This document shows, piece by piece, positions 4,359 through 49,538 of a stretch of 64,000 nt of DNA (positions within the stretch are counted from its first letter, which is position 1; every line of letters begins with the position of its first letter). Below the pieces are notes generated by a model. The model was not told where the DNA came from and did no database searches. It worked only from the letters and a program-made list of their open reading frames with translations. This DNA comes from Mitsuokella multacida DSM 20544. Lineage in GTDB: Bacteria; Bacillota; Negativicutes; Selenomonadales; Selenomonadaceae. Location: positions 33,646-97,645 of the forward strand of contig NZ_GG697142.2 in NCBI RefSeq assembly GCF_000155955.1. Reading direction: 5' to 3'. The position numbers and the translations under genes were made by a program.

Positions 4359-5447
4359 CTATGCCGTCTCCTGCCGCAGGAAGGCGATGTCGGCATCGCC
4401 GCTGCTGACGGCGCGCAGGCATTCCTCAGCCGTCGCATAGTGGCGAATCTGGTCTTTGCCGTAGCGCTGCAGCAGGACGTAGTCGGTCGTCTGCTTGGGC
4501 AGGCAGGCGATGCGCGGCTTTCTATCGAGCTTGCCGCGCCGCGTGACCGTCGTGTAGTAAGAAGTCAGGTAGACGGCCGAGAGGTCCATATCGTGGGCGG
4601 CCGCCCAGCCGACATCCCAGTCGGCATTGAGCAGGATCTGTGCCTCGCCGGTGCCGAGGTCCTTGTAGGCTGACGCGTAATCCTGCTCGATGACGAGGTG
4701 CAGCTCGATGCCGAGGTCATGCTCGAGCCGGTCGACGAGCTTCCGCATCGTGCCCTGCAGCTCGCCGTGTTCATCGACGTAGGCAAAGGGCGCCTCGCGC
4801 GCGACGACGACTGCCGAGATGACGGGGTGGCGCTTGAGGAAGCGCTGTTCTTTTTCCGTCAGGCGCAGTTCGGAAGCGCCCCTCTGTCCGTAATAGATCT
4901 GGTAGAGATGACTGACGAAGTACGGCCGGTTGGCGATGAGCTGATCGGCCGCGAGGTCGAGCTCGCGCATGAGCTCGGGATTGTCCCGTCGCACGGCGAA
5001 GTGGAGCTGGTTGACGCGATAGGGCATCAGCTCACCATGGAAGTTGGCCTCATCGCTGGCCCTGCCCATCATCAGGCGCGAGAAGAGCATGGTCTCTGCT
5101 CGCTTTTGCGTCTTGATGACGCCGGCCAGGACATCGATATCACCTGCTTCCAGGCGCTGCTGGCATTCCTCCCAAGTGCCCGGCACGAAGATGACCTCGC
5201 GGCCCGCATAACTGCCGAGTGCCTGCATGAAATCCGTCTCCATGCCGTGGAAATTGCCGGATGAATCCTCTGTGATATCCGAGCCGAATTGATGGATTCC
5301 CACGCGCAGCAGCGGCCTCGCTTCTGCGCGCGCTGCCGCGAGCAAAAGGCTGAGGTTGCAGGCTATGGAAATGAAAACGATGATGATGGAACGAGCGTAT
5401 CTTCTCTTCAAGAGATCTCTCCACATTGTCCGGTTATCCTCTCTCAA
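4359..5447 (-). CDS. N-terminal fragment: tandem periplasmic solute-binding sensor
   Basis: A 362-residue first part of a cyclic-di-GMP sensor protein. A membrane-spanning signal (IIIVFISIACNLSLLLAA, about residues 18-37) leads into two family-3 solute-binding-like (SBP_bac_3) lobes, about 45-190 (LLRVGIHQF, LEAGDIDVLAGV) and 205-360 (ISAVVVAREAPFAYVD, SSGDADIAFLRQ). It stops at TAG 4359-4361 in the middle of the second lobe; the same frame continues for 31 codons before the next ATG and then into the GGDEF/EAL part. The start ATG overlaps the stop of the preceding gene by 4 bases (ATGA), so translation is coupled. With the downstream half it would form one protein of roughly 897 residues if the stop were sense. 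Confidence 0.75.
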   Translation of the reverse strand: MREDNRTMWRDLLKRRYARSIIIVFISIACNLSLLLAAARAEARPLLRVGIHQFGSDITEDSSGNFHGMETDFMQALGSYAGREVIFVPGTWEECQQRLEAGDIDVLAGVIKTQKRAETMLFSRLMMGRASDEANFHGELMPYRVNQLHFAVRRDNPELMRELDLAADQLIANRPYFVSHLYQIYYGQRGASELRLTEKEQRFLKRHPVISAVVVAREAPFAYVDEHGELQGTMRKLVDRLEHDLGIELHLVIEQDYASAYKDLGTGEAQILLNADWDVGWAAAHDMDLSAVYLTSYYTTVTRRGKLDRKPRIACLPKQTTDYVLLQRYGKDQIRHYATAEECLRAVSSGDADIAFLRQETA

Positions 5448-6037
5448 ATGGCACCTGGCTTCACGGTGACCGTTTCATCGCGCTTGACCGTGACCATCTG
5501 CACGAGGCAGCTGCGCGGTCCGACATTGAAGAGCTCGAAGGACTCCCAGTTGGGCAGCTTCTGGCGAAGCTGCTGCTTGTCGTCGAGCTCGGTGAGATTC
5601 TGCGCCGCATCGCGGCCGTAGCTGTCGAGGATAACGAGGAAATACGTCCCCTCGGGGATACCGTGGAATTCGTATTTGCCGGTCTTCTTGTCGGTCATCG
5701 TATGGTAGACCGGCGCATTGGCAGGGATCTTCCCGAAGCGGTACCAATCGTCGATTTCCTTGCTGCTGAGTTCATCGTAGGTGAAGTCCTTGCCGATCAG
5801 CCAGACATCGGCCTCTTTGTCGTGGAACTTGTTCTTGGGCGCAGCGAGGTCCCAGCTGATGCCACCAGCCGAGGCGTCGGGCGCCGAGGCAATCTTCATG
5901 CCTCGCTCGGACCCGTGCGTGTAGACAGAGCCGGTCACCGTGCCGACTGCCGGTGCGGCAGAGGCTACCGGCAAGGATGCAGCTGCGCTCAGCGCGAGGG
6001 CGAGGCCGATGACAAGGCACTGATAGAATTGTCTCAT
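5444..6037 (-). CDS. Secreted protein with carboxypeptidase-regulatory-like fold
   Basis: A 197-residue exported protein. Residues 1-27 are a signal peptide with a hydrophobic core (CLVIGLALALSAAASLPV) and an ASA-A cleavage region. The mature part contains GKYEFHGIPEGTYFLVILD, the usual signature of transthyretin-like or carboxypeptidase-regulatory (beta-sandwich) domains, followed by a polar tail. No catalytic residues are recognised. Start 6037 has an AAGGGG site; TTG at 6058 in the same frame is unlikely. The stop overlaps the start of the solute-binding/EAL gene, so the two are cotranscribed and translationally coupled. A periplasmic partner or ligand-presenting protein for that sensor is a reasonable inference, not a demonstrated role. 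Confidence 0.7.
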   Translation of the reverse strand: MRQFYQCLVIGLALALSAAASLPVASAAPAVGTVTGSVYTHGSERGMKIASAPDASAGGISWDLAAPKNKFHDKEADVWLIGKDFTYDELSSKEIDDWYRFGKIPANAPVYHTMTDKKTGKYEFHGIPEGTYFLVILDSYGRDAAQNLTELDDKQQLRQKLPNWESFELFNVGPRSCLVQMVTVKRDETVTVKPGAI

Positions 6038-6249
6038 GATGAATCCCCTTCTGTTCAAATCAATATGATGTAATGAATCCTATCCTATTCTACAGCAGGG
6101 AACCGTTCCTTGGCAATCCTATCCATCACATCTTTAGCAACCCATCGCGAAGGATTTTGTGCATAGACAGGTGCAGAAATGAAAGAAATCCGCTATAATA
6201 TGAAATAGGATTTTTACTGAGATTCCTGCGGTAATGGGGAGGGGCTCTC

Positions 6250-6495
6250 ATGCAAAACATAACGAAGTGGTTCAATGTCTTGATCCAATCATGGAATACG
6301 ATATTCTTTGGCTTTCTGGCCTTTGGCGGATTCTATCTCTTGATGCAGGGAAGCTTCCTGGCTGGCGCACTGCTCCTGCTCATCGGCTTTGCCGGTGCGT
6401 GGTTCTGTCTGCAGCAGGCGCAGAAGTGGAATGATGTCAAAAAAGAGGATATCCCCGATATCAAGCAGAATCTCTGGAAACGAAAAAAGAAATAA
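6250..6495 (+). CDS. Small two-helix membrane protein
   Basis: An 81-residue protein of unknown function. Two hydrophobic segments (about 17-32, IFFGFLAFGGFYLLMQ, and 35-53, AGALLLLIGFAGAWFCL) form a hairpin, followed by a charged tail ending WKRKKK. A strong GGGGAGGGG ribosome site precedes ATG 6250, and TATAAT lies at 6194-6199. I do not recognise a family. It is followed at 80 bases by another small gene, and no terminator is evident between them, so they may be cotranscribed. Confidence 0.65.
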   Translation: MQNITKWFNVLIQSWNTIFFGFLAFGGFYLLMQGSFLAGALLLLIGFAGAWFCLQQAQKWNDVKKEDIPDIKQNLWKRKKK

Positions 6496-6574
6496 TTTTT
6501 TCTTGAGCAAAAGTGTGTTTTTGGCGTATAATAAAAAAAGAAATTTTCATTTTTTGAGAAAGGGAGATTCGATT

Positions 6575-6778
6575 ATGGCAAGAAAAGCAAATTATGAGGA
6601 AAAGATTGCAACCCTGCAGGCAAAGATCACGAAGAAGCAGGAAGAGCTCAAAACGCTGAAGGCTCAGCTGGATGAAGTCAAGACGAAGAAGGCCCAGCAG
6701 GATTACAAAGTGCTCGTCGAGTACATGGAGCAGAACAACCTGACGGCTGAGGACGTCCTCGGCGCAATCAAGGAGTAA
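6575..6778 (+). CDS. Small coiled-coil protein
   Basis: A 67-residue, highly charged protein. Residues 6-45 form an uninterrupted coiled coil of K/E/Q/L heptads; the C-terminal part (LVEYMEQNNLTAEDVLGAIKE) looks like a short helical pair. It resembles DUF4315-type small proteins in layout, but this is only an impression. AAAGGGAGA lies 9 bases before the ATG, and a strong terminator follows. Function unknown. Confidence 0.7.
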   Translation: MARKANYEEKIATLQAKITKKQEELKTLKAQLDEVKTKKAQQDYKVLVEYMEQNNLTAEDVLGAIKE

Positions 6779-6794
6779 GTCTCGGACTCCACTC

Positions 6795-6821
6795 GGCCCA
6801 CAGGGAACTGTGGGCCTTTTT
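6795..6821 (+). terminator. Terminator of the coiled-coil gene
   Basis: GGCCCACAG and CTGTGGGCC around a GGAA loop, followed by TTTTT. Confidence 0.9.
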
Positions 6822-6893
6822 GGTTGACGGGGAGAATCTTTTTTACAATCTTTCCCATGTGGACGCGGCGCATAGCATGTTCACTTAGGTCTA

Positions 6894-6902
6894 TGCTATA
6901 AT
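6894..6902 (+). promoter_or_regulatory. Extended -10 promoter of the acetolactate decarboxylase operon
   Basis: TGCTATAAT forms an extended -10 element. No good -35 lies 17 bp upstream. The leader to the gene is about 60 nt. Confidence 0.5.
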
Positions 6903-6969
6903 GAAAAATAATTGAACACAATTGTACTGAATAAAGAAAAATTTCATTCTACTATAGTGAGGAACTCTT

Positions 6970-7743
6970 ATGACACAACATTCTCTGCGCCCACGCGATG
7001 TCAGCGGCATCAAGGAAAAGCGCGATCCCGTCTACCAGATCTCGACGCTCCAGTCGCTGATCCTCGGCAACTACTACGGCTGCCTCTACATCGAAGACCT
7101 GCTGAAGCACGGCGATACGGGCATCGGCACATTCCACGCTGTCGCGGGTGAGCTCATCGTCATCGACGGCCACTGCTACCGTATCCTCGCGGACGGCTCG
7201 GTCATCGAGGCGCAGCCGCTCGATACGACGCCTTTTGCGAGCATCGCGTACCTCGAGGAAGGCCATACCATAAAGTTCGGTGCGATGGCGACGGCAGAGG
7301 CCCTGCGCAATGCGCTCGACGACAGCATCGAACTGCTCGGACCGAACAGCATGTACGTCGTGCGCATCGACGGATACTTCAACCGCGTGGCCGCGCGCAC
7401 GGAGCTCTACCAGCATGAACCCTACAAGCCGTTTGCCGAGGTGCTCGAGACGGATGAGCGCCGCTTCGCCTTCGAGAATGTCGAGGGCTCGCTCGTCTGC
7501 TTCTACTTCCCGCCGTTCATGGACGGCGTCAACACGCCGGGCTGGCACTTCCACTTCATCAATACGGCGCGCACGTTCGGCGGCCACGTCTTTGACGTCG
7601 ACATGGTGCACGGCACGGCGACACTCAATAAGACGGACCGCTTCATCCTCGACCTACCGAGCAATCAGGCCTTCCAGTATGCGGACCTCGCGAACGCCTC
7701 AAAGGATGACATCCACAAGGTCGAGCAGGGCGGTGGTGACTGA
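6970..7743 (+). CDS. budA: Alpha-acetolactate decarboxylase
   Basis: A 257-residue cytosolic enzyme converting 2-acetolactate to acetoin, either diverting pyruvate to a neutral product or removing excess acetolactate from branched-chain amino acid synthesis. The family blocks are present: ISTLQSLILGNYYG near the start, GTFHAVAGELIVIDG (conserved acidic residue), and GWHFHFINTARTFGGHVFD with the three histidines that bind zinc. Length is typical (about 240-260). AGGAAC precedes ATG 6970. The stop overlaps the ATG of the sensor kinase by one base (TGATG), so this metabolic enzyme is the first gene of an operon with a two-component system. Confidence 0.95.
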   Translation: MTQHSLRPRDVSGIKEKRDPVYQISTLQSLILGNYYGCLYIEDLLKHGDTGIGTFHAVAGELIVIDGHCYRILADGSVIEAQPLDTTPFASIAYLEEGHTIKFGAMATAEALRNALDDSIELLGPNSMYVVRIDGYFNRVAARTELYQHEPYKPFAEVLETDERRFAFENVEGSLVCFYFPPFMDGVNTPGWHFHFINTARTFGGHVFDVDMVHGTATLNKTDRFILDLPSNQAFQYADLANASKDDIHKVEQGGGD

Positions 7744-9257
7744 TGCGCTGGCGCGACTTCTCGCTGCGCAAGCGCCTCTGGCTGGCGAATCTCCTGATGA
7801 TCGTCGTCCCGCTCTGCGCGCTCCTGGGGCTTGGCTCGCTGCTCATCGGCATCCTGCACCTGGCGGATGCCGACCACCTCGGGCCACTCTCGCTGCTCTG
7901 GCCGGAGCGGGGTCCCTCGCTCTCGATCGAGTACCTCGTCAGCGACATGCGCGCGCGGGCCGATGACCACAAGCGCCCCACATCCGGCAAGCAAGAGGCG
8001 CTCAAGCAGAAATTCCTGGAAGACTGCCGCCTCCTGGAACAGCAGGGCGTCAGCCTCGCCATGCTGCGCGACGGCCAGCTGCTCTACGTCACGCAGGGCA
8101 GTGATGCGGCGCGCCTGCAGGCGGAGACGCAGCGGCTGTTTGGCCAGAGCCGCAGAGCGGAGCTCTGGACGGAGGACGTCTTTGCCATGCGCTACGTCTC
8201 GCCGAAGAGTGGCCTGACAATCGTCGCGCTGGGCAAGATTCCGCCGCGCCTGCCAGAGGCCTCGCGGGGCATCCCGTGGAAGACCGTGCTCGAAATCGTA
8301 CTGGGAATCGTCCTGCTGACTTTGGTCGCCATCATCCTGTGCCTCGGCCGCTATCTGTCGCAGCTGCTCGACAAGCAGGTGCTGGCGCCGCTCGCTGAAT
8401 TGCGCGCGGCATCGGCGGCCATCCGTCAGGGCAATCTCGAACAGCCCCTGCAGGTGAAGGCCAAAGACGAGATCGGCATGGCCTGTGCGGATTTTGAGCG
8501 CATGCGGCAGGAGCTCTCTCATGCGCGCGATGAGCGCATCCGCTACGAGAACAATCGCAAGGAGCTCATTGCGGGCATCTCCCACGACTTGCGCACGCCG
8601 CTGACGGCCGTGCGCGGTTACGTCAGTGCGCTGCGCGATGGCATCGCGCGGACGCCGGAAAAGAAGCAGCACTACCTCGACATGCTCTACGACAGCGTCC
8701 TGCTGCTCGAGCGTCTCGTCAACAACCTGTTCCTGTTCTCCAAGCTGGACCTCGGCAAAGTGGACTTCCAGATGGAACCCGTCGGCATAAAGGCGTATCT
8801 GTCGGAGTACCTGGCTTCGGTTGCCGCGGAGCGCGAGGTAGACTGCCATCTCACTGTGCCAGAAGGGCTGGCAGGCGATGCGGTCTGCATCGACCGGCTG
8901 CAGTTCCAGCGCGTCCTCGACAACCTGCTGAGCAACAGCAGGAAGTACAGCCAGCCTCAGCGCGCCGTCATCGACATCGCACTCCGGGAGCAGGGCGGCG
9001 GACTGGAGATCGCTTGGCAGGACCACGGCTGCGGCGTCGCGCCGCCGCAGCTGCCGCGCCTCTTTGACAGCTTTTACCGCACGGATGCGGCGCGCTCGCA
9101 TGTCGCTGACGGCAGCGGCCTCGGGCTCGCAATCGTCAAGGAAATCGTCACAGGCATGAAGGGGCGCTGCTCGGCAGAGACGACGCCGGGCGGCGGCCTG
9201 ACAATCGTCCTCTGGCTGCCATTGTTTCGTGAAGAAGAGGAGAAATGGAAAGGGTAA
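7743..9257 (+). CDS. Membrane sensor histidine kinase
   Basis: A 504-residue kinase. The first helix is at about residues 15-40 and the second at about 182-204 (LEIVLGIVLLTLVAIILCLG), enclosing a roughly 140-residue extracytoplasmic sensor region. A HAMP linker (about 205-260) follows. The HisKA box ELIAGISHDLRTP has the phosphorylated histidine at about residue 281. The ATPase domain has the N box NLLSNSRKYS, a G1-like DHGCGV and the G2 box GSGLGLAIVKEI. It is translated from an ATG overlapping the budA stop and followed 6 bases later by its response regulator. The signal is unknown; linkage to acetoin metabolism suggests acid or overflow metabolites, which is inference. Confidence 0.9.
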   Translation: MRWRDFSLRKRLWLANLLMIVVPLCALLGLGSLLIGILHLADADHLGPLSLLWPERGPSLSIEYLVSDMRARADDHKRPTSGKQEALKQKFLEDCRLLEQQGVSLAMLRDGQLLYVTQGSDAARLQAETQRLFGQSRRAELWTEDVFAMRYVSPKSGLTIVALGKIPPRLPEASRGIPWKTVLEIVLGIVLLTLVAIILCLGRYLSQLLDKQVLAPLAELRAASAAIRQGNLEQPLQVKAKDEIGMACADFERMRQELSHARDERIRYENNRKELIAGISHDLRTPLTAVRGYVSALRDGIARTPEKKQHYLDMLYDSVLLLERLVNNLFLFSKLDLGKVDFQMEPVGIKAYLSEYLASVAAEREVDCHLTVPEGLAGDAVCIDRLQFQRVLDNLLSNSRKYSQPQRAVIDIALREQGGGLEIAWQDHGCGVAPPQLPRLFDSFYRTDAARSHVADGSGLGLAIVKEIVTGMKGRCSAETTPGGGLTIVLWLPLFREEEEKWKG

Positions 9258-39027: not shown

Positions 39028-39348
39028 TTATTTTGCGCGCAGCTGCGTGTAGAGATTGACGATCTCTACGGCCATGTCCTTCATGGCCATGCCCGTCATG
39101 ACGTAGTCCTGCGCGTGCGAGATCAGCACGTTGAAGGGACCCTGCAGCTCGCCGCTGGCCTCTTTCTGCAGGAGCTCCTCGGTCTGGAGCTTGTGCGCCT
39201 TCAAGAGGTGCTCGTCGGCATCCTTAAGGCATTCCTCTGCCTCGCCGAAATTCCCGCGGCGGGCCTGCTTGAGCGCCTCCGCTACTTTCGCGCGCCCGTC
39301 ACCGGCCGCCGAGATAATCGCAAATGCGACGTCTTCTGTCTTTGCCAT
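39028..39348 (-). CDS. PTS EIIA component, lactose/cellobiose family
   Basis: A 106-residue helical protein of the PTS IIA Lac/Chb family, which carries phosphate from HPr to a sugar-specific EIIB. His78 in VLISHAQDYVMTG is at the same position and context as the phosphorylated histidine of lactose EIIA, with the following aspartate that binds metal at the trimer axis. No EIIB or EIIC gene is in the window, so it is an orphan. GGAGGAAAT precedes ATG 39348. It lies 98 bases after the IolH-like gene without a clear terminator and is probably cotranscribed; a regulatory role is possible. Confidence 0.9.
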   Translation of the reverse strand: MAKTEDVAFAIISAAGDGRAKVAEALKQARRGNFGEAEECLKDADEHLLKAHKLQTEELLQKEASGELQGPFNVLISHAQDYVMTGMAMKDMAVEIVNLYTQLRAK

Positions 39349-39446
39349 ATTATTTCCTCCTTATAGCCTTCCCCCTCTGGGAAAGGTGTCTGCGAAGCAT
39401 GAGCAGACGGAAGAGGTATGTGACATCATTCCGTCCGGCTTCTAGA

Positions 39447-40367
39447 TTATTTCTTCAAGAGCTCATTCTCGATGCGCTCACGTGCCTCTGGTGCCCACTC
39501 GTTCATCTTCTCGGGGAAGCCGAAGATGGAGACGCAGGCGATGTTGTCGCCGCCGACCTTCGGGGCATCCGGCTTGAGCTGCTTGTTGGCGAAGTCCATC
39601 TCGCGCAGCGTCTCGAAGATGCCGTCGAAGTCGACGTCGCCCATGCCGAGGTTGAGGTGCTGGTGAACGCTGACGTCCTCGCGGCCGCGCTGATTGAGGG
39701 AAGGCGGGTTGAGGATGTAGCGGCAGTCGAGCGTCTGATTGAATGTGTCGGCGAACAGGACGTGCGTGAGCTCATCGCCGGCATACTTGAGCATGTGGCG
39801 GACATCGCCCTTGCCCTGGTCATAGAAGAAGCCGTGCGGGGAGGAGTAGACGTAGCCGAGGTTCTTGGAGCGGAAGGACTTGACCATATCGCAAGCCTCA
39901 TCGTTGAGCTCGCAGAAGTCGTACGGATGCGACTGGATCTCGACGCGCAGGCCCTCGCGCTCGATGATCGGCAGCAGTTCTTCCATCGAGCGGAACCACA
40001 TGCCGTTGCAGATCTCCTGCTGGTTCGGGTCGCCGGAGAGCTCTGTGTTGATGACGGGGACGCCCATGTTGACGGCAATCTCGATCATCTTCTTCCAGTT
40101 GGCGACAGCCATCTTGCGCTGCTCTTCGGTCGGACCGGACCAACGGTAGACGCAGATGAAGGACGAGATCTCGACGCCCGTCTCCTTGAGGGCCTTGCGG
40201 TACTCTTCCTCGCACTCCTTGGAGAACAGCGGATGTTTATAGAAGGGGTTGATGCGCGGATGCGGGGACTGCTCGATGTACTTGTAGCCCCAGTCAGCGA
40301 CCTGATGGACGAGGTCGTTGATGCTCATCTGTTTGGAAAGAACGTCAACATCAAATGCGATTTTCAT
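39447..40367 (-). CDS. Xylose-isomerase-like TIM-barrel protein, IolH-like
   Basis: A 306-residue sugar phosphate isomerase/epimerase-family protein. Blocks such as ADWGYKYIEQSPHPRINPF, ISSFICVYRWSGPTEEQR and VPVINTELSGDP match the IolH branch of inositol clusters. Metal-site residues appear in INTELSG, VEIQSHPYDF and VHQHLNLGMGDVDF. The reaction of IolH is not established. GGAGGG precedes ATG 40367. A strong promoter lies upstream and the orphan EIIA gene follows. Confidence 0.82.
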   Translation of the reverse strand: MKIAFDVDVLSKQMSINDLVHQVADWGYKYIEQSPHPRINPFYKHPLFSKECEEEYRKALKETGVEISSFICVYRWSGPTEEQRKMAVANWKKMIEIAVNMGVPVINTELSGDPNQQEICNGMWFRSMEELLPIIEREGLRVEIQSHPYDFCELNDEACDMVKSFRSKNLGYVYSSPHGFFYDQGKGDVRHMLKYAGDELTHVLFADTFNQTLDCRYILNPPSLNQRGREDVSVHQHLNLGMGDVDFDGIFETLREMDFANKQLKPDAPKVGGDNIACVSIFGFPEKMNEWAPEARERIENELLKK

Positions 40368-40457
40368 GGTAAGCCCTCCAGTCACAAAACGAGATAAAAC
40401 AATATCCATACATAGCGCAACTTATTTCGAGCTGTGCTGTTTTTTTGCTGTGCTTAC

Positions 40458-40486
40458 AAAATACCATGCTCGAAAACGGTTGTCAA
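40458..40486 (-). promoter_or_regulatory. Strong promoter of the IolH-like/EIIA operon
   Basis: On the minus strand TTGACA (40486-40481), a 17-bp spacer and TATTTT (40463-40458). The leader is about 85 nt. Confidence 0.65.
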
Positions 40487-40529
40487 GAATGTTCCGAATA
40501 CGCTGCGAGCCCAGTAACGGCGCGATTTT

Positions 40530-40598
40530 AGCAGGATTGTACAAGTATCGGAGATGGATGGTTGACGGAAGGGAGTTCTACAGCAGGATTGTGCAAGT
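40530..40598. repeat. Two 17-bp direct repeats 52 bp apart, putative AraC sites
   Basis: AGCAGGATTGTACAAGT at 40530-40546 and AGCAGGATTGTGCAAGT at 40582-40598 differ at one base. The 52-bp phasing equals about five helical turns. A partial third copy (GGACAAGATTGTGCC) ends near 40680. They lie between the two divergent promoters in the 40368-40828 gap, which holds no gene. Confidence 0.6.
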
Positions 40599-40739
40599 TT
40601 GTCCGAGAAAAATTTTTTAAAATAATTTTCAAGACGAAACAATAAAAATAAATAATAAGGAAGCAGGACAAGATTGTGCCATTTTGGCGGGCTGCCTGTG
40701 CATTTTTGCCCGCAACAAAGGCAACATGGTGGAATTAAT

Positions 40740-40761
40740 CGGCGTCATTTCGCCGTATAAT
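40740..40761 (+). promoter_or_regulatory. -10 with adjoining inverted repeat, IolE-like operon
   Basis: CGGCG-TCATTT-CGCCG abuts TATAAT (40756-40761), so a protein bound there would cover the promoter spacer. The leader to ATG 40829 is about 60 nt. Confidence 0.5.
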
Positions 40762-40828
40762 GACAGCACAAGGTCAAACAAGACGACCGCCAGAAGGCAA
40801 AGGGAAATGAGAAAAGGAGGATTCATCC

Positions 40829-41755
40829 ATGGCTATCCATATTACAGGCGCACCGTGCTGCTGGGGCGTCGATGATGTCAAGAACCCTTATCTGCCACCT
40901 TGGCAGAAGGTGCTCTATGAAGCGGGGCAGGCCGGCTACAAGGCCATTGAGCTCGGACCTTACGGGTATCTGCCGCTCGATATCGATGTCGTGAGCAAGG
41001 AGCTCGAGAAGAACCACATCGGCATCGTGGCAGGGACTATCTTCGATGATCTGCTGGCCGAGGACAATTATCCGAACGTCCTCAAGCAGGTCGATGACAT
41101 CTGCGGCATCATCACGAAGCTGCCGAAGCTGCCGACAGAGCCAGGCCAGCGCTATCCGGCGCCGTACCTGACGGTCATGGACTGGGGCCACGATGAGCGC
41201 GACTACAACGCTGGCCATAGCGACAGGGCTCCGCGCCTCAGCGATGAGGACTGGGCCCGCATGATGGGGCACATCAAGGGCATTGCCGAGAAGGCCGCTT
41301 CATGGGGTGTCCGGGCTGTCGTCCACCCGCATGCCGGCGGCTACATCGAATTTGCCGATGAGATCGACAAGCTCGCGCGGGATATCCCGAAGGATGTCGC
41401 AGGCCTCTGCCTCGATACGGGCCATCTGCGGTATTCGGGCATGGATCCGGTCACCTGGCTGCGCAAGTATGCGGACCGGCTCGACTACATCCACTTCAAG
41501 GATATCAACGAGAAGGTCTACAAGGAAGTGCTCTCTGAGCACATCCGCTTCTTCGAGGGCTGCGGCAAGGGATCGATGTGCCCAATCGGCACGGGCATGC
41601 TCGACTATCCGGCCATCTACAAGGTGCTGACCGAGGAGATCCACTACAACGGCTACATCACGGTCGAGCAGGAACGCGACCCGCGCAATGTCGCGACGAG
41701 CCTGCGCGATGTCAAGGCCAGCTGCGATTACCTGCACAGCCTCGGCTTTGCATGA
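40829..41755 (+). CDS. Sugar phosphate isomerase/epimerase family, IolE-like
   Basis: A 308-residue TIM-barrel protein. The N terminus (ITGAPCCWGVDD), AGYKAIELGPYGYLP, VVHPHAGGYIEFADEIDKL, LCLDTGHLRYSGMDP and DRLDYIHFKDI match the IolE (2-keto-myo-inositol dehydratase) branch and include the metal-binding Glu, Asp and His positions. It would remove water from a keto-sugar or keto-cyclitol. AAAAGGAGG precedes ATG 40829. It is followed 152 bases later by a Gfo/Idh dehydrogenase on the same strand. Confidence 0.82.
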   Translation: MAIHITGAPCCWGVDDVKNPYLPPWQKVLYEAGQAGYKAIELGPYGYLPLDIDVVSKELEKNHIGIVAGTIFDDLLAEDNYPNVLKQVDDICGIITKLPKLPTEPGQRYPAPYLTVMDWGHDERDYNAGHSDRAPRLSDEDWARMMGHIKGIAEKAASWGVRAVVHPHAGGYIEFADEIDKLARDIPKDVAGLCLDTGHLRYSGMDPVTWLRKYADRLDYIHFKDINEKVYKEVLSEHIRFFEGCGKGSMCPIGTGMLDYPAIYKVLTEEIHYNGYITVEQERDPRNVATSLRDVKASCDYLHSLGFA

Positions 41756-41907
41756 GCGCATCTTGGATCGCGCATACCGGTCTGCGCAGTCATGGCGTTG
41801 CGAAGACACCAGACATATAGATAGAGATTGACCGGAACCATGAATTCATGAGATGGGTTTATCAAGAGTTTGCTTGGACAAAGAGAAAGAGAAAAGGAGA
41901 GTTTATC

Positions 41908-43068
41908 ATGATTAACGGTGAAAAAGTACTCGATCATCCGATTCGCTGGGCTATGGTCGGCGGTGGCCGCGGCAGTCAGATTGGCTACATCCATCGCAGT
42001 GCAGCGCTGCGCGACCGCTCCTTTGAACTCGTCGCCGGTGCCTTCGACATCAACCCGGAGCGCGGCAAGGACTTCGGCATCCAGCTCGGCGTCAATCCGG
42101 ACCGCTGCTATCCGGACTACAAGACGATGCTCGCCGAGGAGGCAAAGCGCGGTGATGATAAGATCGAGGCCGTGACGATTGCCGTCCCGAACGGCCTTCA
42201 CTACGAAGTCTGCAAGGCTGTTCTCGAAGCTGGATTCCACGCTGTCTGCGAGAAGCCGCTTTGCTTCACGACGGAGCAGGCAGAGGAGCTCGTCCACTTG
42301 GCTGACAGCAAGGGCCTCGTCGTCGGTGTGACGTACGGCTATTCTGGCCATCAGCTCATCGAGCAGGCGCGCCAGATGGTCCTGCACGGCGATCTCGGCG
42401 AGATCCGCCTCGTCAAGATGCAGTTCCCGTTCGGCGCCTACAACACGCCGGTCGAGGAAACGAATTCTGCTGCACGCTGGCGCATGGACCCGACGAAAGC
42501 CGGCCCATCGTTTGTGCTCGGCGATGTCGGCACGCATCCGCTCTTCCTCGCTGAGACGATGGTCCCGGATTTTGAGATCGAGAGCCTCATGTGCACGACG
42601 AAATCCTTCATCCCGACGCGCAAGCTCGAGGACAATGCCTTCGTCATCATGAACCTCAAGGGTGGCGCACAGGCGACGTGCTGGGCTTCGGCCATCAACT
42701 GCGGTGCCCTGCACGGCCAGAAAGTCCGCATTGTCGGCTCGAAGGCTTCGGTCGAGTGGTACGATGAGCGCCCGAATCAGCTGACGTATGAGATCGAGGG
42801 CGAGCCGGTCCGCATCCTCGAGCGCGGCGGTGCTTATCTCTATCCGTCGGCACGTGCCGAAGACCGCATCAGCGGCGGCCATACGGAAGGTCTCTTCGAT
42901 GCGTGGTCGAACCTCTACCGCCGCTTCGCCATCGCCATGGAGAAGGCGAACAAGGGCGAGAAGGTCGACTTCTGGTATCCGGATGTCCATGCCGGTGCGG
43001 AAGGCGTCAAGTGGGTCGAGAAATGCGTGGAGTCGGCCAAGAAGGGCGCCGTCTGGGTCAAGTACTGA
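41908..43068 (+). CDS. Gfo/Idh/MocA-family dehydrogenase
   Basis: A 386-residue NAD(P)-dependent sugar or cyclitol dehydrogenase. The Rossmann glycine motif is WAMVGGGRGSQIG, the CEKPL lysine motif is at about residue 115, and the catalytic-region GDVGTHPLFLAE follows. It is distinct from the IolG-like gene at 47650 (about 386 against 336 residues). With the preceding IolE-like gene it would oxidise then dehydrate a substrate. AAAAGGAG precedes ATG 41908. Confidence 0.88.
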   Translation: MINGEKVLDHPIRWAMVGGGRGSQIGYIHRSAALRDRSFELVAGAFDINPERGKDFGIQLGVNPDRCYPDYKTMLAEEAKRGDDKIEAVTIAVPNGLHYEVCKAVLEAGFHAVCEKPLCFTTEQAEELVHLADSKGLVVGVTYGYSGHQLIEQARQMVLHGDLGEIRLVKMQFPFGAYNTPVEETNSAARWRMDPTKAGPSFVLGDVGTHPLFLAETMVPDFEIESLMCTTKSFIPTRKLEDNAFVIMNLKGGAQATCWASAINCGALHGQKVRIVGSKASVEWYDERPNQLTYEIEGEPVRILERGGAYLYPSARAEDRISGGHTEGLFDAWSNLYRRFAIAMEKANKGEKVDFWYPDVHAGAEGVKWVEKCVESAKKGAVWVKY

Positions 43069-43130
43069 GCTCTCCTGAGTTCCAGCTTTGACCGCCAATC
43101 ATCCCCAAAAATCAATTTGCTATGCATTGA

Positions 43131-43162
43131 AAATGCCGCTCATACGAGCGGCATCTTTTTTG
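43131..43162. terminator. Terminator between convergent dehydrogenase and AraC genes
   Basis: ATGCCGCTC, loop ATAC, GAGCGGCAT, then CTTTTTT. Confidence 0.85.
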
Positions 43163-43164
43163 CG

Positions 43165-44010
43165 TCATATCTTGCGGTATGTCTTGCGGTAATCGCGCGG
43201 GGACATGCCGGTAATCTTGTGGAAGGCCTTGTTGAAGTAGCTGGAACTGTTGTAGCCCGTGCGGATGGCAATCTCAGTGATGGGCAGGGCCGTATCGATC
43301 AGCAGGGTCTGCGCCTCGCCGATGCGGCGCCGCGTGATGTATTGGAGCGGTGCGTAGCCGTAAGCGGCCTTGAACGCATGCGCGAGGTGGAAGGTGCTGA
43401 CGTGGAACTCCTGTGCGAGCCCCGCCAGGGTGATGGTCTCGTCGTAGGCCGCATCGAGGCGGCTGCGCACGCCTGCCAGGAGATGATGCTCCTCGGGCGG
43501 CAGCACGACGCTGCGGCTCGTCACTTCCATGACCAGGAGCAGCAGAGCACAGAGCAGGTGGTTGATGCTCTCTTCGGGATGGCAGCCCTTACCCTGCGCG
43601 CCACGGTACATGAACTCGAGCAGATGGCAGAAATCCGGGAAGAGTCCTTCTGTCTTCAGGACGGGCAGCACGTCTGGTGGCAGGAATTTCCCCGCGGGCA
43701 GGTTCGGCAGCTGCAGGCCGCGGATGGCACCGGAGTAGATAGATAGATTGCGGTTTGCCGGAGAGGACTCATCGTGCACGACGTCCTGCCCAATCAGCAG
43801 CAGGTCGCCCTTCTGCGTGTAGTAGCGCTGGCCGTCGATAATGTGGATGCCGCTGCCCTCCGTGATCAGGATGAACTCCGCGACATCGCCGTGGCGATGC
43901 ATCGTGCGCGGCATGGAGGTGTAGGGCGTCTCCGCGCGGTAGAGCGTCACGAGCCGGGGCATGGCCTCGCTCGTGAAGACGGGCTTGTAATTTGATGAGA
44001 TGAATGCCAT
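43165..44010 (-). CDS. AraC-family regulator, HDES group member 2
   Basis: A 281-residue regulator. The sensor part has MHRHGDVAEFILITEG and GDLLLIGQDVVHDES; the DNA-binding part has TLAGLAQEFHVSTFHLAHAF, PITEIAIRTGYNSSSYFNKAF and MSPRDYRKTYRK. Its C-terminal domain closely resembles that of the AraC gene at 37149 (APLQY...RRIGEAQTLLIDT). AGAAGGAGGG precedes ATG 44010. It is divergent from the IolT-like transporter and is the best candidate to control it. Confidence 0.9.
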   Translation of the reverse strand: MAFISSNYKPVFTSEAMPRLVTLYRAETPYTSMPRTMHRHGDVAEFILITEGSGIHIIDGQRYYTQKGDLLLIGQDVVHDESSPANRNLSIYSGAIRGLQLPNLPAGKFLPPDVLPVLKTEGLFPDFCHLLEFMYRGAQGKGCHPEESINHLLCALLLLVMEVTSRSVVLPPEEHHLLAGVRSRLDAAYDETITLAGLAQEFHVSTFHLAHAFKAAYGYAPLQYITRRRIGEAQTLLIDTALPITEIAIRTGYNSSSYFNKAFHKITGMSPRDYRKTYRKI

Positions 44011-44055
44011 AGACAACCCTCCTTCTCGAATCTTCTTTCTTTAGTTTAACAGCAA

Positions 44056-44071
44056 TTCCAAGATTCTGGAA
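44056..44071. promoter_or_regulatory. Inverted repeat upstream of the AraC gene
   Basis: TTCCA-AGATTC-TGGAA, about 45 bp before ATG 44010; possible self-regulation site. Confidence 0.35.
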
Positions 44072-44171
44072 GAACAACTGCAGGGGCATTTGAGATTCTC
44101 TTTATTCTGTATCTTGTTGCATTGTCTTGGGGGATATGATGCAGAATAATATAAAAGAAGCTCAAAGATAA

Positions 44172-44190
44172 CGTTTTCAGATAGAAAACG
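44172..44190. promoter_or_regulatory. Inverted repeat upstream of the transporter
   Basis: CGTTTTC-AGATA-GAAAACG, a perfect 7-bp dyad, about 40 bp upstream of the -10. Likely an operator. The rest of the 44011-44329 gap has no gene. Confidence 0.45.
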
Positions 44191-44203
44191 AGACAGAAAT
44201 CAT

Positions 44204-44240
44204 AAAGTATAATTCTGAAAATTCATCTATAATAAAGCAT
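44204..44240 (+). promoter_or_regulatory. Promoter element A (shared with 46701)
   Basis: AAAGTATAATTCTGAAAA, 5 bases, then CTATAATAAAGCAT. The -10 is TATAAT (44228-44233). The same arrangement precedes the iolI-iolG operon. Confidence 0.6.
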
Positions 44241-44329
44241 GTCAAGCAAAAGAGCGATGTTCCTGCGATGCGGGAACGACAAATATGACGAATATAGTGG
44301 AATGGTTTGAATTGAGAGGGGAATGTAAC

Positions 44330-45739
44330 ATGGCGGAATCATCTCATCAGAAGTATCTCAAGCGTGTCACGGTAGTCTCGACATTCGGCGGACTGCTCTT
44401 TGGTTATGACACGGGTGTCATCAATGGCGCGCTCGCCTTCATGGCCCGTCCGGACCAGCTGAATCTGACGCCGGCAGTCGAGGGCTTTGTCGCCAGTGGC
44501 CTGCTCTTCGGCGCGGCCATCGGTTCGTTCTTCGGCGGCCGTCTCTCAGATGCCGAGGGGCGCCGCAAGATGCTGCTCTGCCTCGCGGTGATCTTCTTCT
44601 TTGCGGCCATCGGCTGCTCCCTGTCGCCGACAGCAGGCATTCTCATCGCCTGCCGCTTCGTGCTCGGCCTGGCCGTCGGTGGTGCTTCGGTCACCGTGCC
44701 GGCGTATCTCGCGGAGATGGCGCCAGCTGACCGCCGCGGCCGCATGGTCACGCAGAACGAGCTCATGATCGTCTCGGGCCAGCTGCTCGCCTTCATCCTC
44801 AACGCCATCCTCGGCGTCACGTTCGGCGAGGTCGGCCACATCTGGCGCTACATGCTCGCCCTCGCATCGATCCCGGCTGTCGTGCTCTGGTTCGGCATGC
44901 TCGTGATGCCGGAGAGCCCGCGCTGGCTCCTGCTGCAGGGCCGCGTCAGCGATGCGATGCAGGTTCTCAAGAAGATCCGCGATGAGCGCATGGCCATTGC
45001 GGAGCTCAATGAGATCCAGGACAGCATCGACTCCGAGAGACACCTCGACAAGGCTGGTTACAAGGATCTGGCGACGCCCTGGATCCGCCGCATCGTCTTC
45101 ATCGGCATGGGCGTCTCCATCTGCCAGCAGATTTCTGGCGTCAACTCCATCATGTATTATGGCACGCAGATCCTGACGCAGGCAGGCTTCTCGACGGAAG
45201 CCGCCCTGATCGGCAACATCGCCAACGGCACCATCTCTGTCGCGGCCACGATTTTCGGCATGTGGCTCATGACGCGCCATGGCCGCCGTCCGCTCATCAT
45301 GACGGGCCAGATCGGCACGATGGCCTGCCTCTGCGCGATCGGCCTGCTCTCGAACCTGCTCGCCGGCACGGAGATCCTGCCGTTTGTTGTCCTCTCGCTG
45401 ACGGTCACCTTCCTGTTCTTCCAGCAGGGCTTCCTGTCGCCCGTCACCTGGCTGCTGCTCTCGGAGCTCTTCCCACTGCGCATCCGCGGCATGGGCATGG
45501 GCTGCGCCGTCCTCTGCCTCTGGCTGACGAACTTCTGCATCGGCTCCGCATTCCCGAGCCTGCTTTACTCGTTCGGTCTCTCGGCCACATTCTTCATCTT
45601 CGCGGCCATCGGCCTGCTCGGTCTCGGCTTCGTTTACAAGTTCGTGCCGGAAACGCGTGGCCGCACGCTCGAGCAGATAGAGCGTGACTTCCGCCATCAC
45701 GGTGAGACGGATGTAGCGCACTGCGAGGAAAAGGCCTGA
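44330..45739 (+). CDS. MFS sugar/inositol:proton symporter, IolT-like
   Basis: A 469-residue, 12-helix transporter of the sugar-porter family. Signatures seen: GGLLFGYDTGVINGAL (helix 1), GRRKMLL, PESPRWLL, QQISGVNSIMYYGTQI (substrate helix) and PETRGRTLEQIE at the end. Inositol and xylose transporters share these; the iol-type neighbours favour a cyclitol or related sugar. GAGAGGGGA precedes ATG 44330; the open frame upstream has no ribosome site. Confidence 0.9.
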   Translation: MAESSHQKYLKRVTVVSTFGGLLFGYDTGVINGALAFMARPDQLNLTPAVEGFVASGLLFGAAIGSFFGGRLSDAEGRRKMLLCLAVIFFFAAIGCSLSPTAGILIACRFVLGLAVGGASVTVPAYLAEMAPADRRGRMVTQNELMIVSGQLLAFILNAILGVTFGEVGHIWRYMLALASIPAVVLWFGMLVMPESPRWLLLQGRVSDAMQVLKKIRDERMAIAELNEIQDSIDSERHLDKAGYKDLATPWIRRIVFIGMGVSICQQISGVNSIMYYGTQILTQAGFSTEAALIGNIANGTISVAATIFGMWLMTRHGRRPLIMTGQIGTMACLCAIGLLSNLLAGTEILPFVVLSLTVTFLFFQQGFLSPVTWLLLSELFPLRIRGMGMGCAVLCLWLTNFCIGSAFPSLLYSFGLSATFFIFAAIGLLGLGFVYKFVPETRGRTLEQIERDFRHHGETDVAHCEEKA

Positions 45740-45797
45740 GCAAGACGAATCCAGAATCCAAAAGCATCTCAAAGAATCTCATAATCTCATAATGCGG

Positions 45798-45843
45798 AGA
45801 GCCGGTCTGTTCCACGATGCTGGAGCAGGCCGGCTCTGTTTTG
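45798..45843 (+). terminator. Terminator of the sugar transporter
   Basis: AGAGCCGG...CCGGCTCT with further CTG/CAG pairing, then TTTT. Confidence 0.72.
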
Positions 45844-45916
45844 CAGGATAATTCTTGTAAAGCAAGAGAAAATCCTGTTAAAATAGAGGAAATAAGTGTA
45901 ATGGGGGCAATGTGCT

Positions 45917-46609
45917 ATGGGCGTCGTTTACTACAAGCAGAACAAGAACATCCTTGAGCCACATCTTTCCTGGGACGAGATGCGGCTCGTCTACGTGAGC
46001 TTCAATGACCGCCAGGAGACCTTGACGCCGACGGCCGTCCATTGCCACGAGAAGAATCTCGAGCTGCAGTACATCTGCGGTGGCCGCGGCAACCTGCGGA
46101 TCGGTAGCCGCCTCTATGAGGTGCAGGAAGGTGACCTGCTCGTCTACAATCAGGGCGAGCTCCACGACGAGAGCGCCGACCCGGAGCAGGGGCTCTGGTT
46201 CTACAACTGTGGCGTGACGGGACTGAATCTACCGGGAAGGCCGGAGGGCGAGCTCATTGCCCCTGAGACATCGCCGCGCATCCATGCCGGTGAGACGGCC
46301 GGCGTCGTAGAATCGCTCTTCAAGCTGCTCTATGCAGAGGTGGAACGCGACCTGCCAAAGAATGAGCAGATCACGCATGACATCCTGCGCGTGCTCATCA
46401 GCATGATCCTCTACCAGCTGCCGAAGGAACGCCAGCTGCCGTCGCGGGAGAAGGACCGCCTGCTCATTGCGTGCAAGGACTACATCGACGGTCATTTCAT
46501 GGAGGAGCTCACGGTGGAAAAACTGGCGGAGCGCTCGCACATGAGCATCTCGGGTTTTGCGCATCAGTTCAAGAAGCTCAACAAGCTGCTGTTGCATCAT
46601 CCAATTTGA
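45917..46609 (+). CDS. AraC-family regulator, HDES group member 3, C-terminally truncated
   Basis: A 230-residue protein. The sensor domain is complete (VHCHEKNLELQYICGG, GDLLVYNQGELHDES), as is the first helix-turn-helix (VEKLAERSHMSISGFAHQF), but it ends at NKLLLHHPI. The second helix-turn-helix and the closing AraC helix (about 50-60 residues) are missing, and no continuation is seen in other frames before the terminator at 46643. It may be non-functional, or a ligand-binding partner of its paralogues. GGGGGC precedes ATG 45917. Confidence 0.8.
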   Translation: MGVVYYKQNKNILEPHLSWDEMRLVYVSFNDRQETLTPTAVHCHEKNLELQYICGGRGNLRIGSRLYEVQEGDLLVYNQGELHDESADPEQGLWFYNCGVTGLNLPGRPEGELIAPETSPRIHAGETAGVVESLFKLLYAEVERDLPKNEQITHDILRVLISMILYQLPKERQLPSREKDRLLIACKDYIDGHFMEELTVEKLAERSHMSISGFAHQFKKLNKLLLHHPI

Positions 46610-46642
46610 GCCAGTGGCCAGCGAGCTTCCTGCTTTTGCAGA

Positions 46643-46677
46643 AACGTGCAAGTCATCGGACTTGCACGTTTTTTTTG
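46643..46677 (+). terminator. Terminator of the truncated AraC gene
   Basis: AACGTGCAAGTC, loop ATCG, GACTTGCACGTT, then TTTTTT. Confidence 0.9.
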
Positions 46678-46700
46678 TGGGCAAAGCGAGCAGGAACGAG

Positions 46701-46738
46701 AAAGTAATATTCTGAAAACAGAGCTATACTAAAACCAT
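46701..46738 (+). promoter_or_regulatory. Promoter element A of iolI-iolG
   Basis: AAAGTAATATTCTGAAAA, 5 bases, then CTATACTAAAACCAT; -10 is TATACT (46725-46730). Near copy of the element at 44204. Confidence 0.6.
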
Positions 46739-46788
46739 CAAGTGAGAGCAAATCATCCTGAAGAATAAAGAAAGGGAGCATGAACGCG

Positions 46789-47622
46789 ATGAAACTCAGC
46801 ATGAATCAGGCAACCTGCCTGGAAAAATCCAGCCTGGAAAAAGATCTCGAACTCTGCGAGAAATACGGCTACGATATGATCGAGCCGCGCACGATGGACG
46901 GCATCCCCAACTATCTCAAGAACCACACGATTGATGAGCTGGCAGCCTGGTTCAAGAACCACAAGGTGAAGCCACTGGCCTTCAACACGCTTTGCTTCTT
47001 CAATAACCGCACGCCGGAGGATTACCAGAAGGTCCTGCAGGAACTTCGTCAGATGTGCGAATGGGGCAAGAAGATCGGCTGCAAGACGGTCATCACGGTG
47101 CCGACGGTCGACCTCAAGAAGGTCACGCGCCAGGAAATCCACAAATCGGCGGTCAAATGCCTCAAGGAGATGGGTGCGATTGCAGCAGAATACGGCATGC
47201 GCATCTCGGTAGAGTTCATCGGCCATCCGGCAGCTTCCATCAATACGTTCGGTGAGGCTTGGTCGATCATCGAGGAAGTCGACATGGACAATGTCGGCAT
47301 CACGCTCGACTGCTTCCACTTCCACGGCATGGGCTCGAAGCTCGAGGACCTCGCCAAGGCCGACGGCAAGAAAATCTTCATCGTGCATCTCAACGACACG
47401 GAGGACTTCCCGATTGGCTCGCTGCTCGATGAAGACCGCGTCTGGCCGGGCGATGGCTGCATCGACCTCGATGCGATCTTCCAAACGCTCAAGAAGATCG
47501 GCTGGCAGGAAGATGTCGTCTCGCTCGAGCTCTTCCGTCCCGAGTACTACAAGATGGACCCGGACGATGTTTACCGCATCGGCAAGGAGAAGTCGGAAGC
47601 CGTCATCAAGCGCAATTTTTAA
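46789..47622 (+). CDS. iolI: 2-keto-myo-inositol isomerase IolI
   Basis: A 277-residue TIM-barrel isomerase that interconverts 2-keto-myo-inositol and 1-keto-D-chiro-inositol. It follows Bacillus IolI closely along its whole length: LELCEKYGYDMIEPRTMD, LAFNTLCFFNNR, SVEFIGHPAASINTFGEA, GITLDCFHFHGMGS, HLNDTEDFPIG, LDEDRVWPGDGCIDLDA and SLELFRPEYYK. Metal ligands Glu, Asp, His and Glu are present in these blocks. Start 46789 (MKLSMNQ) matches the family and leaves a proper distance to AAAGGGAG; ATG 46780 lies too close. It is followed 27 bases later by iolG. Confidence 0.9.
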   Translation: MKLSMNQATCLEKSSLEKDLELCEKYGYDMIEPRTMDGIPNYLKNHTIDELAAWFKNHKVKPLAFNTLCFFNNRTPEDYQKVLQELRQMCEWGKKIGCKTVITVPTVDLKKVTRQEIHKSAVKCLKEMGAIAAEYGMRISVEFIGHPAASINTFGEAWSIIEEVDMDNVGITLDCFHFHGMGSKLEDLAKADGKKIFIVHLNDTEDFPIGSLLDEDRVWPGDGCIDLDAIFQTLKKIGWQEDVVSLELFRPEYYKMDPDDVYRIGKEKSEAVIKRNF

Positions 47623-47649
47623 TAGACATATAGATAGGGAGGAATCATC

Positions 47650-48660
47650 ATGTTACATGTAGGTGTCATCGGTTGCGGTGGTATGGGCAGAAGCCATATT
47701 GATCGTCTGACGAATCGTACGCAGGGCGCAGAGGTTGTCGCTGTTGCGGATATGGTCGACGCACTCGTCGAGAAGGGGGCCGCTATCGCTGGCCCGAACT
47801 GCAAGAAGTACAAGAGCGAAGCCGACCTCATCAACGATCCGGCTGTCGACGCTGTCTTCATCGTCACGCCGGGCTTTGCCCACAAAGAAGCACTGCTCTT
47901 GGCCATCAAGGCTGGCAAGCGCATCTTCTGCGAGAAGCCGCTCTGCACGACGGCGGAGGACTGCCTCGAGGTCATCGATGCCGAAGTCAAGTCGGGCAAG
48001 CATCTGATCCAGCTCGGTTTCATGCGCCGCTATGATAAGGGGTATAATGAGGTCAAAGCAGCACTGGATTCTGGCGAATACGGCTCACCGCTGCTGCTGC
48101 ACTGCACGCACCGCAATCCGGAAGTGCCGGACAGCTACACGACGGCGATGGCGGTCCACGATACGGCCATCCATGAGATTGACGTCACGCATTGGCTTGT
48201 CAACGATGACTTCGTCTCGGCACAGGTCATCATGCCGAAGGTCACGAAGTACGCGCATGCAGAGCTCGCTGACCCACAGCTCATGATCCTGCAGACGAAG
48301 AGCGGCATCGTCGTCGAGGATGAGGTCTTCGTCAACTGCAAGTTCGGTTACGATATCAACTGCCATGTGGTCTGCGAGGACGGCGTCATCGAGATGCCGC
48401 AGCCGCTCTACCCGACCTACCGCAAGAACGCTCAGATCACGCAGACGATCGATACGGACTGCTTCGTTCGCTTCCACGATGCGTACGACGATGAGGTCCA
48501 GAACTGGGTCAACGATGCGGCAGAAGGCATCATCGGCGGCCCGAATGCCTGGGATGGCTATCTCGCGGCCATCACGGCCGACGCACTGGTCCGCGCTCAG
48601 ACGAGCGGCAAAGTCGAGACCATCAAGCCGGCTCAGGAGAAACCAGCTTTCTACGACTGA
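47650..48660 (+). CDS. iolG: Inositol 2-dehydrogenase-like IolG (Gfo/Idh/MocA)
   Basis: A 336-residue NAD-dependent dehydrogenase expected to oxidise myo-inositol or a similar cyclitol to the 2-keto form. Rossmann motif HVGVIGCGGMGRSH; CEKPLCTT with the catalytic lysine; GFMRRYDKGY; and HDTAIHEIDVTHWL with the catalytic Asp/His pair typical of IolG. GGGAGGAATC precedes ATG 47650. Operon with iolI; promoter element A upstream. Substrate could be a stereoisomer such as scyllo- or D-chiro-inositol. Confidence 0.88.
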   Translation: MLHVGVIGCGGMGRSHIDRLTNRTQGAEVVAVADMVDALVEKGAAIAGPNCKKYKSEADLINDPAVDAVFIVTPGFAHKEALLLAIKAGKRIFCEKPLCTTAEDCLEVIDAEVKSGKHLIQLGFMRRYDKGYNEVKAALDSGEYGSPLLLHCTHRNPEVPDSYTTAMAVHDTAIHEIDVTHWLVNDDFVSAQVIMPKVTKYAHAELADPQLMILQTKSGIVVEDEVFVNCKFGYDINCHVVCEDGVIEMPQPLYPTYRKNAQITQTIDTDCFVRFHDAYDDEVQNWVNDAAEGIIGGPNAWDGYLAAITADALVRAQTSGKVETIKPAQEKPAFYD

Positions 48661-48767: not shown

Positions 48768-48941
48768 GCTCCGCGTCTCGTTCGTCTCAACCTTTCTCGA
48801 TTTTGCAGGCAGAAGCCAGTAGAATTTTTTAGGCGGTTGTAGTATAGTGTAATTGAATCAAGAAACCGAAAGAACCCCTTTTACGCATGTGCCTTAGGCA
48901 CGATTCAGGCTTATCTCAAGCTTATCATGGAGGAAATGAAG

Positions 48942-49538
48942 ATGGAAAAACATACGTTGATCACGATTTCGCGTCAGTTCGGCAGCGGCGGCCGTGAGGT
49001 CGCGGAGATCCTGGCCAAGAAGCTCGGCGTGCGCCGCTACGACAAGAAGATCGTCGAGATGGCAGCCGACAACATCGAGGAAGGCATGGACCCGAGGGAA
49101 GCTGTCGAGCTTTCCTACAACACGCCATCCAACTGCCTCGGCAACCTCGGCGATTATGGCTATGAGCGCGTCGCGCGCCACAACCGCATGTACATCGAGC
49201 AGGCCAAGGTCATCCTCGGCGTGGCGGAGAAGGAGAGCGCCGTCTTCCTCGGACGCTGCGCTGACTATATCCTGAAGGACAAGCCGAATTGCTATTCATT
49301 CTTTATCTACGCGGATGACGACTTCCGCGCACAGCGCGCTAAGACGGATTACGATGGCGCGACGCTTGAGCAGCTCAACAAGGAAGAGAAGCGCCGTAAG
49401 CAGTACTATGAGTTCTACACGGGCCAGACCTGGGGAGCTCCGGAGCACTATGACCTCATGATCAACACGTCGAACATGCCGCTCGAAGATGTGGCGGATT
49501 TCATCCTCGACTACATCAAGAAAAATCCGAGAGGCTGA
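48942..49538 (+). CDS. Cytidylate kinase-like protein
   Basis: A 198-residue P-loop protein of the cytidylate kinase-like family (not Cmk itself). The nucleotide loop is ISRQFGSGGREVAEILAKKLG, followed by YDKKIVEMAA and FLGRCADYILKD, which are family signatures. Its substrate is not established. ATG 48942 is chosen because GGAGG lies 8 bases upstream; ATG 48927 overlaps that site. Single-gene unit with its own terminator. Confidence 0.85.
   Translation: MEKHTLITISRQFGSGGREVAEILAKKLGVRRYDKKIVEMAADNIEEGMDPREAVELSYNTPSNCLGNLGDYGYERVARHNRMYIEQAKVILGVAEKESAVFLGRCADYILKDKPNCYSFFIYADDDFRAQRAKTDYDGATLEQLNKEEKRRKQYYEFYTGQTWGAPEHYDLMINTSNMPLEDVADFILDYIKKNPRG

Follow-up and report, generated by a model that had tools for sequence, protein, structure and literature searches.

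An inositol gene cluster of Mitsuokella multacida as the probable peripheral part of a split pathway with a candidate side branch

We analyzed a cluster of inositol-type genes (positions 39447-48660) in a stretch of 64,000 nucleotides from Mitsuokella multacida DSM 20544, which is called the window throughout (G000:C5:33646-97645; host genome 2.58 Mb, 6 contigs). All eight named genes of the cluster are present as open reading frames. An IolH-like triosephosphate isomerase (TIM) barrel protein of 306 amino acids (39447..40367, minus strand; PF01261, 131 bits) is encoded divergently from an IolE-like paralogue of inosose dehydratase, designated IolE2 (40829..41755, plus strand; TIGR04379, 147 bits, below the curated cut-off of 290). 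Next come a second Gfo/Idh dehydrogenase, designated GfoA (41908..43068, plus strand; 573 and 538 bits to the PDB entries 7d5m and 3dty), and an intact AraC-family regulator (43165..44016, minus strand; HTH_18, 93 bits, together with an AraC-type sensor domain). The remaining genes, all on the plus strand, encode an IolT-type sugar porter of the major facilitator superfamily (MFS) (44285..45739, with the start more likely at 44330; TIGR00879, 354 bits, over the cut-off), a further AraC-family protein (45917..46609; sensor domain only in Pfam), the inosose isomerase IolI (46780..47622) and IolG, a B. subtilis-type myo-/D-chiro-inositol dehydrogenase (47650..48660). The IolH-, IolE-, IolI- and IolG-like proteins, the second dehydrogenase and the transporter, which the original prediction had named from the letters of the window alone, were thus all recovered with profile or PDB matches. 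The cluster consists of two units, namely porter-IolI-IolG, and IolE2-GfoA together with the IolH-like gene.

The original prediction had also held that iolB, iolC, iolD and iolJ are lacking. This was correct for the window, as none of the four was found among its genes, and when the whole genome was searched with the models for iolB and iolD, no match fell inside it. It was not correct for the genome. On contig C6, at about G000:C6:1415.6-1422.5 kb, iolJ, iolC, iolB, iolD and iolE were observed together in a row. The run opens with an aldehyde dehydrogenase gene and a DeoR-type regulator gene on the minus strand, followed by the genes for an Fe-alcohol dehydrogenase, iolJ, iolC, an iolB-like gene, iolD, iolE and a permease gene. 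Three of the genes clearly exceeded the cut-offs of their models, i.e. iolD (956 versus 715 bits), the IolC domain of iolC (418 versus 300 bits) and canonical iolE (419 versus 290 bits). The class II aldolase just passed that of NF005288 (399.6 versus 396 bits), a model with a generic name, so that the IolJ label comes from the place in the operon. The iolB-like gene, with 75 bits, remained below its cut-off of 205 and sits between iolC and iolD. The core operon itself is without iolG, and a second IolI (L007:4164-5003) and a further IolG (L007:6135-7154; 355.3 bits versus the TIGR04380 cut-off of 355) are encoded with a GPH transporter about 10-12 kb downstream. Judged from its genes, the inositol pathway of this genome appears to be complete and split over two loci, not missing. 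The apparent gap is thereby corrected: a single window suggests a new pathway, whereas the inositol genes of the genome are simply distributed over two sites.

In B. subtilis, the joint action of IolI and IolG leads from myo- and D-chiro-inositol to scyllo-inosose. The window proteins gave strong matches to both of these enzymes (IolG, 372 bits to 3mz0; IolI, 334 bits to structure 1i60 over residues 4-278), and the lysine of the EKP motif as well as the D-x3-H motif are present in the window IolG. From these similarities, porter, IolI and IolG would form the standard entry for myo- and D-chiro-inositol. The proposal that the gene set could act on another cyclitol stays for the IolE2-GfoA half, whose dehydratase belongs to a separate clade and was present in addition to canonical IolE in each of the genomes tested.

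The same superfamilies, Gfo/Idh dehydrogenases and AP_endonuc_2 TIM barrels, also carry out oxidation and elimination on glycosides of the C-glycoside or 3-keto-glycoside type, and a pathway of this type is in fact encoded in the genome. Its genes form a separate cluster on contig C4, at about G000:C4:172-176 kb, where CGDB (PF19906, 116 bits) precedes the genes for its TIM-barrel partner and for two dehydrogenases. Within the genome, PF19906 was found on C4 only and not in the window cluster, and the 3-keto-disaccharide hydrolase (PF06439) was not found in the genome. The window IolG scored 372 bits to inositol dehydrogenase versus 81 bits to DgpA. A structure search with the IolE2 model returned IolE at E-values of 2.7e-21 to 2e-18 and the next family at 1.8e-13, so that inosose dehydratase was the nearest fold by a clear margin. 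The keto-glycoside pathway put forward in the original prediction was consequently rejected for the window, and glycoside chemistry by this cluster is considered highly improbable. As a separate observation, the C4 locus (L113, G000:C4:168000-187000) encodes, at about 4573-8500, the PF19906 subunit, the TIM-barrel partner, Gfo/Idh dehydrogenases and a GPH-type transporter, and it is probably a C-glycoside degradation locus in Mitsuokella.

IolE2 forms a clade apart from canonical IolE in the tree (support 97/94). Its predicted structure (predicted local distance difference test, pLDDT, 94) had the IolE entries 3cny and 9zmu as best PDB matches, with a template modelling (TM) score of about 0.82. 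The active-site positions HxH, DTGH, HxKD and the C-terminal E of IolE are kept, and in GfoA the lysine of EKP and the D-x3-H motif match when it is aligned with IolG. This retention of catalytic motifs would also be expected if IolE2, GfoA and the IolH-like protein were redundant copies, kept for dosage or for different growth conditions and sharing the substrates of IolE and IolG. A precedent is Corynebacterium glutamicum, in which four of seven inositol dehydrogenases are active, with overlapping substrates (PMC9603128). However, IolE2 shares only 23-24% identity with IolE in structural alignments and has HPHAGG in place of the IolE motif HHHMGT, yet within its own clade it is 66-96% conserved across phyla (96% for the counterpart in M. 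jalaludinii DSM 13811). Conservation at such a distance from IolE suggests a constraint of its own, and simple redundancy is therefore regarded as unlikely. For the IolH-like protein, 38-40% identity was found to TIM-barrel genes within Bacillaceae iol clusters (L069, L087, L088 and L100). An AlphaFold2 model (pLDDT 80) had an epimerase-type TIM-barrel fold, with ketose 3-epimerases and IolI as nearest folds (TM about 0.7), and pointed to no function. To our knowledge, the role of IolH itself has not been established.

IolE2 and GfoA are adjacent in most of 80 loci, which come from Selenomonadaceae, Lachnospiraceae, Butyricicoccaceae, Bacillaceae and Burkholderia, several of them inside an iol cluster. 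Two loci (L034 and L041) have the arrangement iolC-B-D-transporters-iolE-AraC-iolE2-GfoA, two others (L067 and L088) contain iolC, D, J and E together with iolE2, and one (L039) reads IolH-iolI-iolG-AraC-iolE2-GfoA. The Burkholderia loci comprise iolD, iolC, IolH, iolG, iolE2 and GfoA, and in a locus of Anaerostipes hominis (L044), genes related to those for IolE2, GfoA and the IolH-like protein are present at 73, 64 and 87% identity, respectively. IolE2-GfoA, often with an IolH-like gene, is conserved as a cassette among Bacillota and Burkholderia and also occurs on some plasmids. In annotations its two members appear as 'TIM barrel protein' and 'Gfo/Idh/MocA family oxidoreductase'.

Inositol and phytate support growth of the related species M. 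jalaludinii, which converts both to 3-hydroxypropionate (PMC7618129). Its highly expressed inositol operon, MJ_0906-0911, is followed by a 3-hydroxypropionate permease (PMC7618129), and the C6 operon described above matches it in gene order. The window cluster is found in M. jalaludinii in the same order, with 77-99% protein identity, at about C1:398-407 kb. MJ numbers were placed by interpolation between two reference genes. One belongs to the phytase family, lies at C1:13.8 kb and was equated with MJ_0021; the other, at C1:331 kb, encodes an iron-sulphur subunit of succinate dehydrogenase and was assigned to MJ_0311-0313. The interpolation puts the cluster near MJ_0374-0382. From this interpolated position, MJ_0380, an inositol transporter with an eight-fold increase on phytate (PMC7618129), is probably the orthologue of the window porter. 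By the same positional argument MJ_0385, named 'inosose dehydratase', is most likely the IolE2 counterpart, while it is possible that it corresponds to the IolH-like gene instead.

Taken together, these data indicate that the window cluster is very probably the peripheral part, i.e. uptake, oxidation and isomerization, of an inositol pathway that is complete but divided between two loci; GfoA and IolE2 would add a side branch to this pathway. For this strain we infer the following reactions. Inositol, in Mitsuokella probably derived from phytate, would enter by the MFS porter. IolG would oxidize myo-inositol to scyllo-inosose and D-chiro-inositol to 1-keto-D-chiro-inositol, and IolI would interconvert these two products. 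Canonical IolE and then IolD, IolB, IolC and IolJ, all encoded on C6, would dehydrate, open, isomerize, phosphorylate and cleave, and a reductase would act last to yield 3-hydroxypropionate. In the side branch, GfoA, with IolH nearby, would oxidize another inositol isomer or derivative to an inosose, which IolE2 would dehydrate to a dione acceptable to IolD. Dehydration of an inosose removes the stereochemistry at two ring carbons, and inososes that differ only there therefore converge on the same dione. We lean towards this assignment of GfoA and IolE2 to another inositol isomer or derivative, with less assurance than for the cluster as a whole. With respect to the phytate source, domains of PTP-like phytases (PF14566) were observed three in a row at G000:C3:29.9-32.3 kb and once at C5:467.3 kb, which is in line with phytate as the origin of the inositol.

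Co-occurrence with the core pathway bears directly on whether the branch joins it. Of the 253 genomes of the class that were searched, 13 contain GfoA and 42 contain iolD, and both were observed in 12 of the 13 (Fisher p 1.2e-9, a value that takes genomes as independent and ignores shared descent); the one GfoA genome that shows no iolD (G158) is fragmented. Both iolD and canonical iolE exceeded their cut-offs in all 27 tested genomes with an IolE2 locus from the 80 loci, some of which had iolD visible in the locus when they were selected. IolE2 is thus an additional dehydratase in each of the 27. The exception, the assumption of independence and the mode of selection weigh against a split pathway with a joined side branch, as do the stand-alone occurrence of IolE2-GfoA next to a LacI regulator gene on Agrobacterium, Klebsiella and Pantoea plasmids, which lie outside the sets searched for iolD, the score of the window IolG, which is below the NF052679 cut-off (434 versus 540 bits), and the regulators. 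The local regulators differ, with AraC at the window cluster and DeoR at the C6 core operon, and an 11-base word shared between the promoter regions of the two loci was not found. The original prediction had named complete iol genes elsewhere under the same regulators as the finding that would speak against it; complete genes do exist on C6, and this finding was largely obtained, with different local regulators at the two loci.

The separate clade of IolE2 and the plasmid cassettes could also belong to a self-contained pathway of IolE2, GfoA and IolH for another cyclitol or derivative, e.g. an O-methyl inositol, an amino-inositol or a rare isomer, and this pathway would stay separate from the iol core. 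The transcription of MJ_0385, assigned by its position in the cluster, points in the same direction, as it reached only 48 counts versus about 13000 for MJ_0910 on inositol or phytate (PMC7618129). However, the cassette comes without an accompanying ring-opening enzyme, and iolD and canonical iolE accompany IolE2 throughout the tested set; a self-contained pathway is accordingly judged to be rather improbable. We return to the side branch that joins the core. In its general form it would mean that bacteria with a complete iol core gain access to one more inositol isomer or derivative through this widespread, unnamed cassette, in which IolE2 and GfoA are usually joined by an AraC or LacI regulator and often by an IolH-like protein. 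The cassette would supply its own oxidation and dehydration, converging at IolD. The chances of this generalization are about even.

Two further features of the loci concern the regulators and the flanking genes. The second AraC gene, situated between the genes for the porter and IolI, shows an internal deletion when compared with the M. jalaludinii copy, which is longer, carries the helix-turn-helix region and is intact. Most of the DNA-binding domain is lost in this strain, a truncation that the original prediction had not noted. A shared operator was considered and discarded, because the only common 11-base word lay within the window itself and represented a purine-rich ribosome-binding stretch. 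Two similar cytidylate-kinase-like genes (48927-49538 and L006:18716-19345) are each situated just downstream of one inositol locus.

Several published systems can be compared. GfoA is close to 7d5m and 3dty, whereas its match to the Paracoccus scyllo-inositol dehydrogenase, of the scyllo-inositol/L-glucose dehydrogenase subfamily (PMC5969746), is weak (39 bits). 3dty has been grouped with the Paracoccus enzyme in a subfamily with swapped loops and called biochemically uncharacterized (PMC5969746). In the literature searched (PDB codes, pinitol, inosose, paralogue, Cg0212), neither an activity for 7d5m nor a characterized close relative of GfoA or IolE2 was found. The rhizopine genes mocA and mocC were considered as candidate relatives of this pair, and a paper on them offered neither sequence nor reaction. 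Another close system is that of M. jalaludinii (PMC7618129), which has the same gene content and order, including core operon and transporter, at 77-100% protein identity, and differs in its intact second AraC gene, which is truncated in the window strain. In comparison with iolABCDEFGHIJ of B. subtilis, the window contains IolG, IolI, an IolH-like protein and an IolT-type porter, and IolJ, C, B, D and E are encoded elsewhere in the genome. Unlike B. subtilis, Mitsuokella has the genes split over two loci, with an extra IolE/Gfo-Idh pair, AraC locally and DeoR at the core.

A split pathway is already known in kind. In Anaerostipes, the iol clusters are divided and contain several IolG and IolE copies (PMC8355322), and in A. 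rhamnosivorans iolCDB lie apart from iolG, iolE and the isomerase gene, as in Mitsuokella. In contrast, Anaerostipes forms propionate via a CoA-transferase branch, whereas Mitsuokella makes 3-hydroxypropionate. What remains of interest is the IolE2-GfoA cassette, which poses a modest question. It ranges from gut Bacillota to Burkholderia and plant-associated plasmids, each of the genomes tested had a complete pathway besides it, and its substrate would tell which dietary cyclitols can be used by gut bacteria that degrade phytate.

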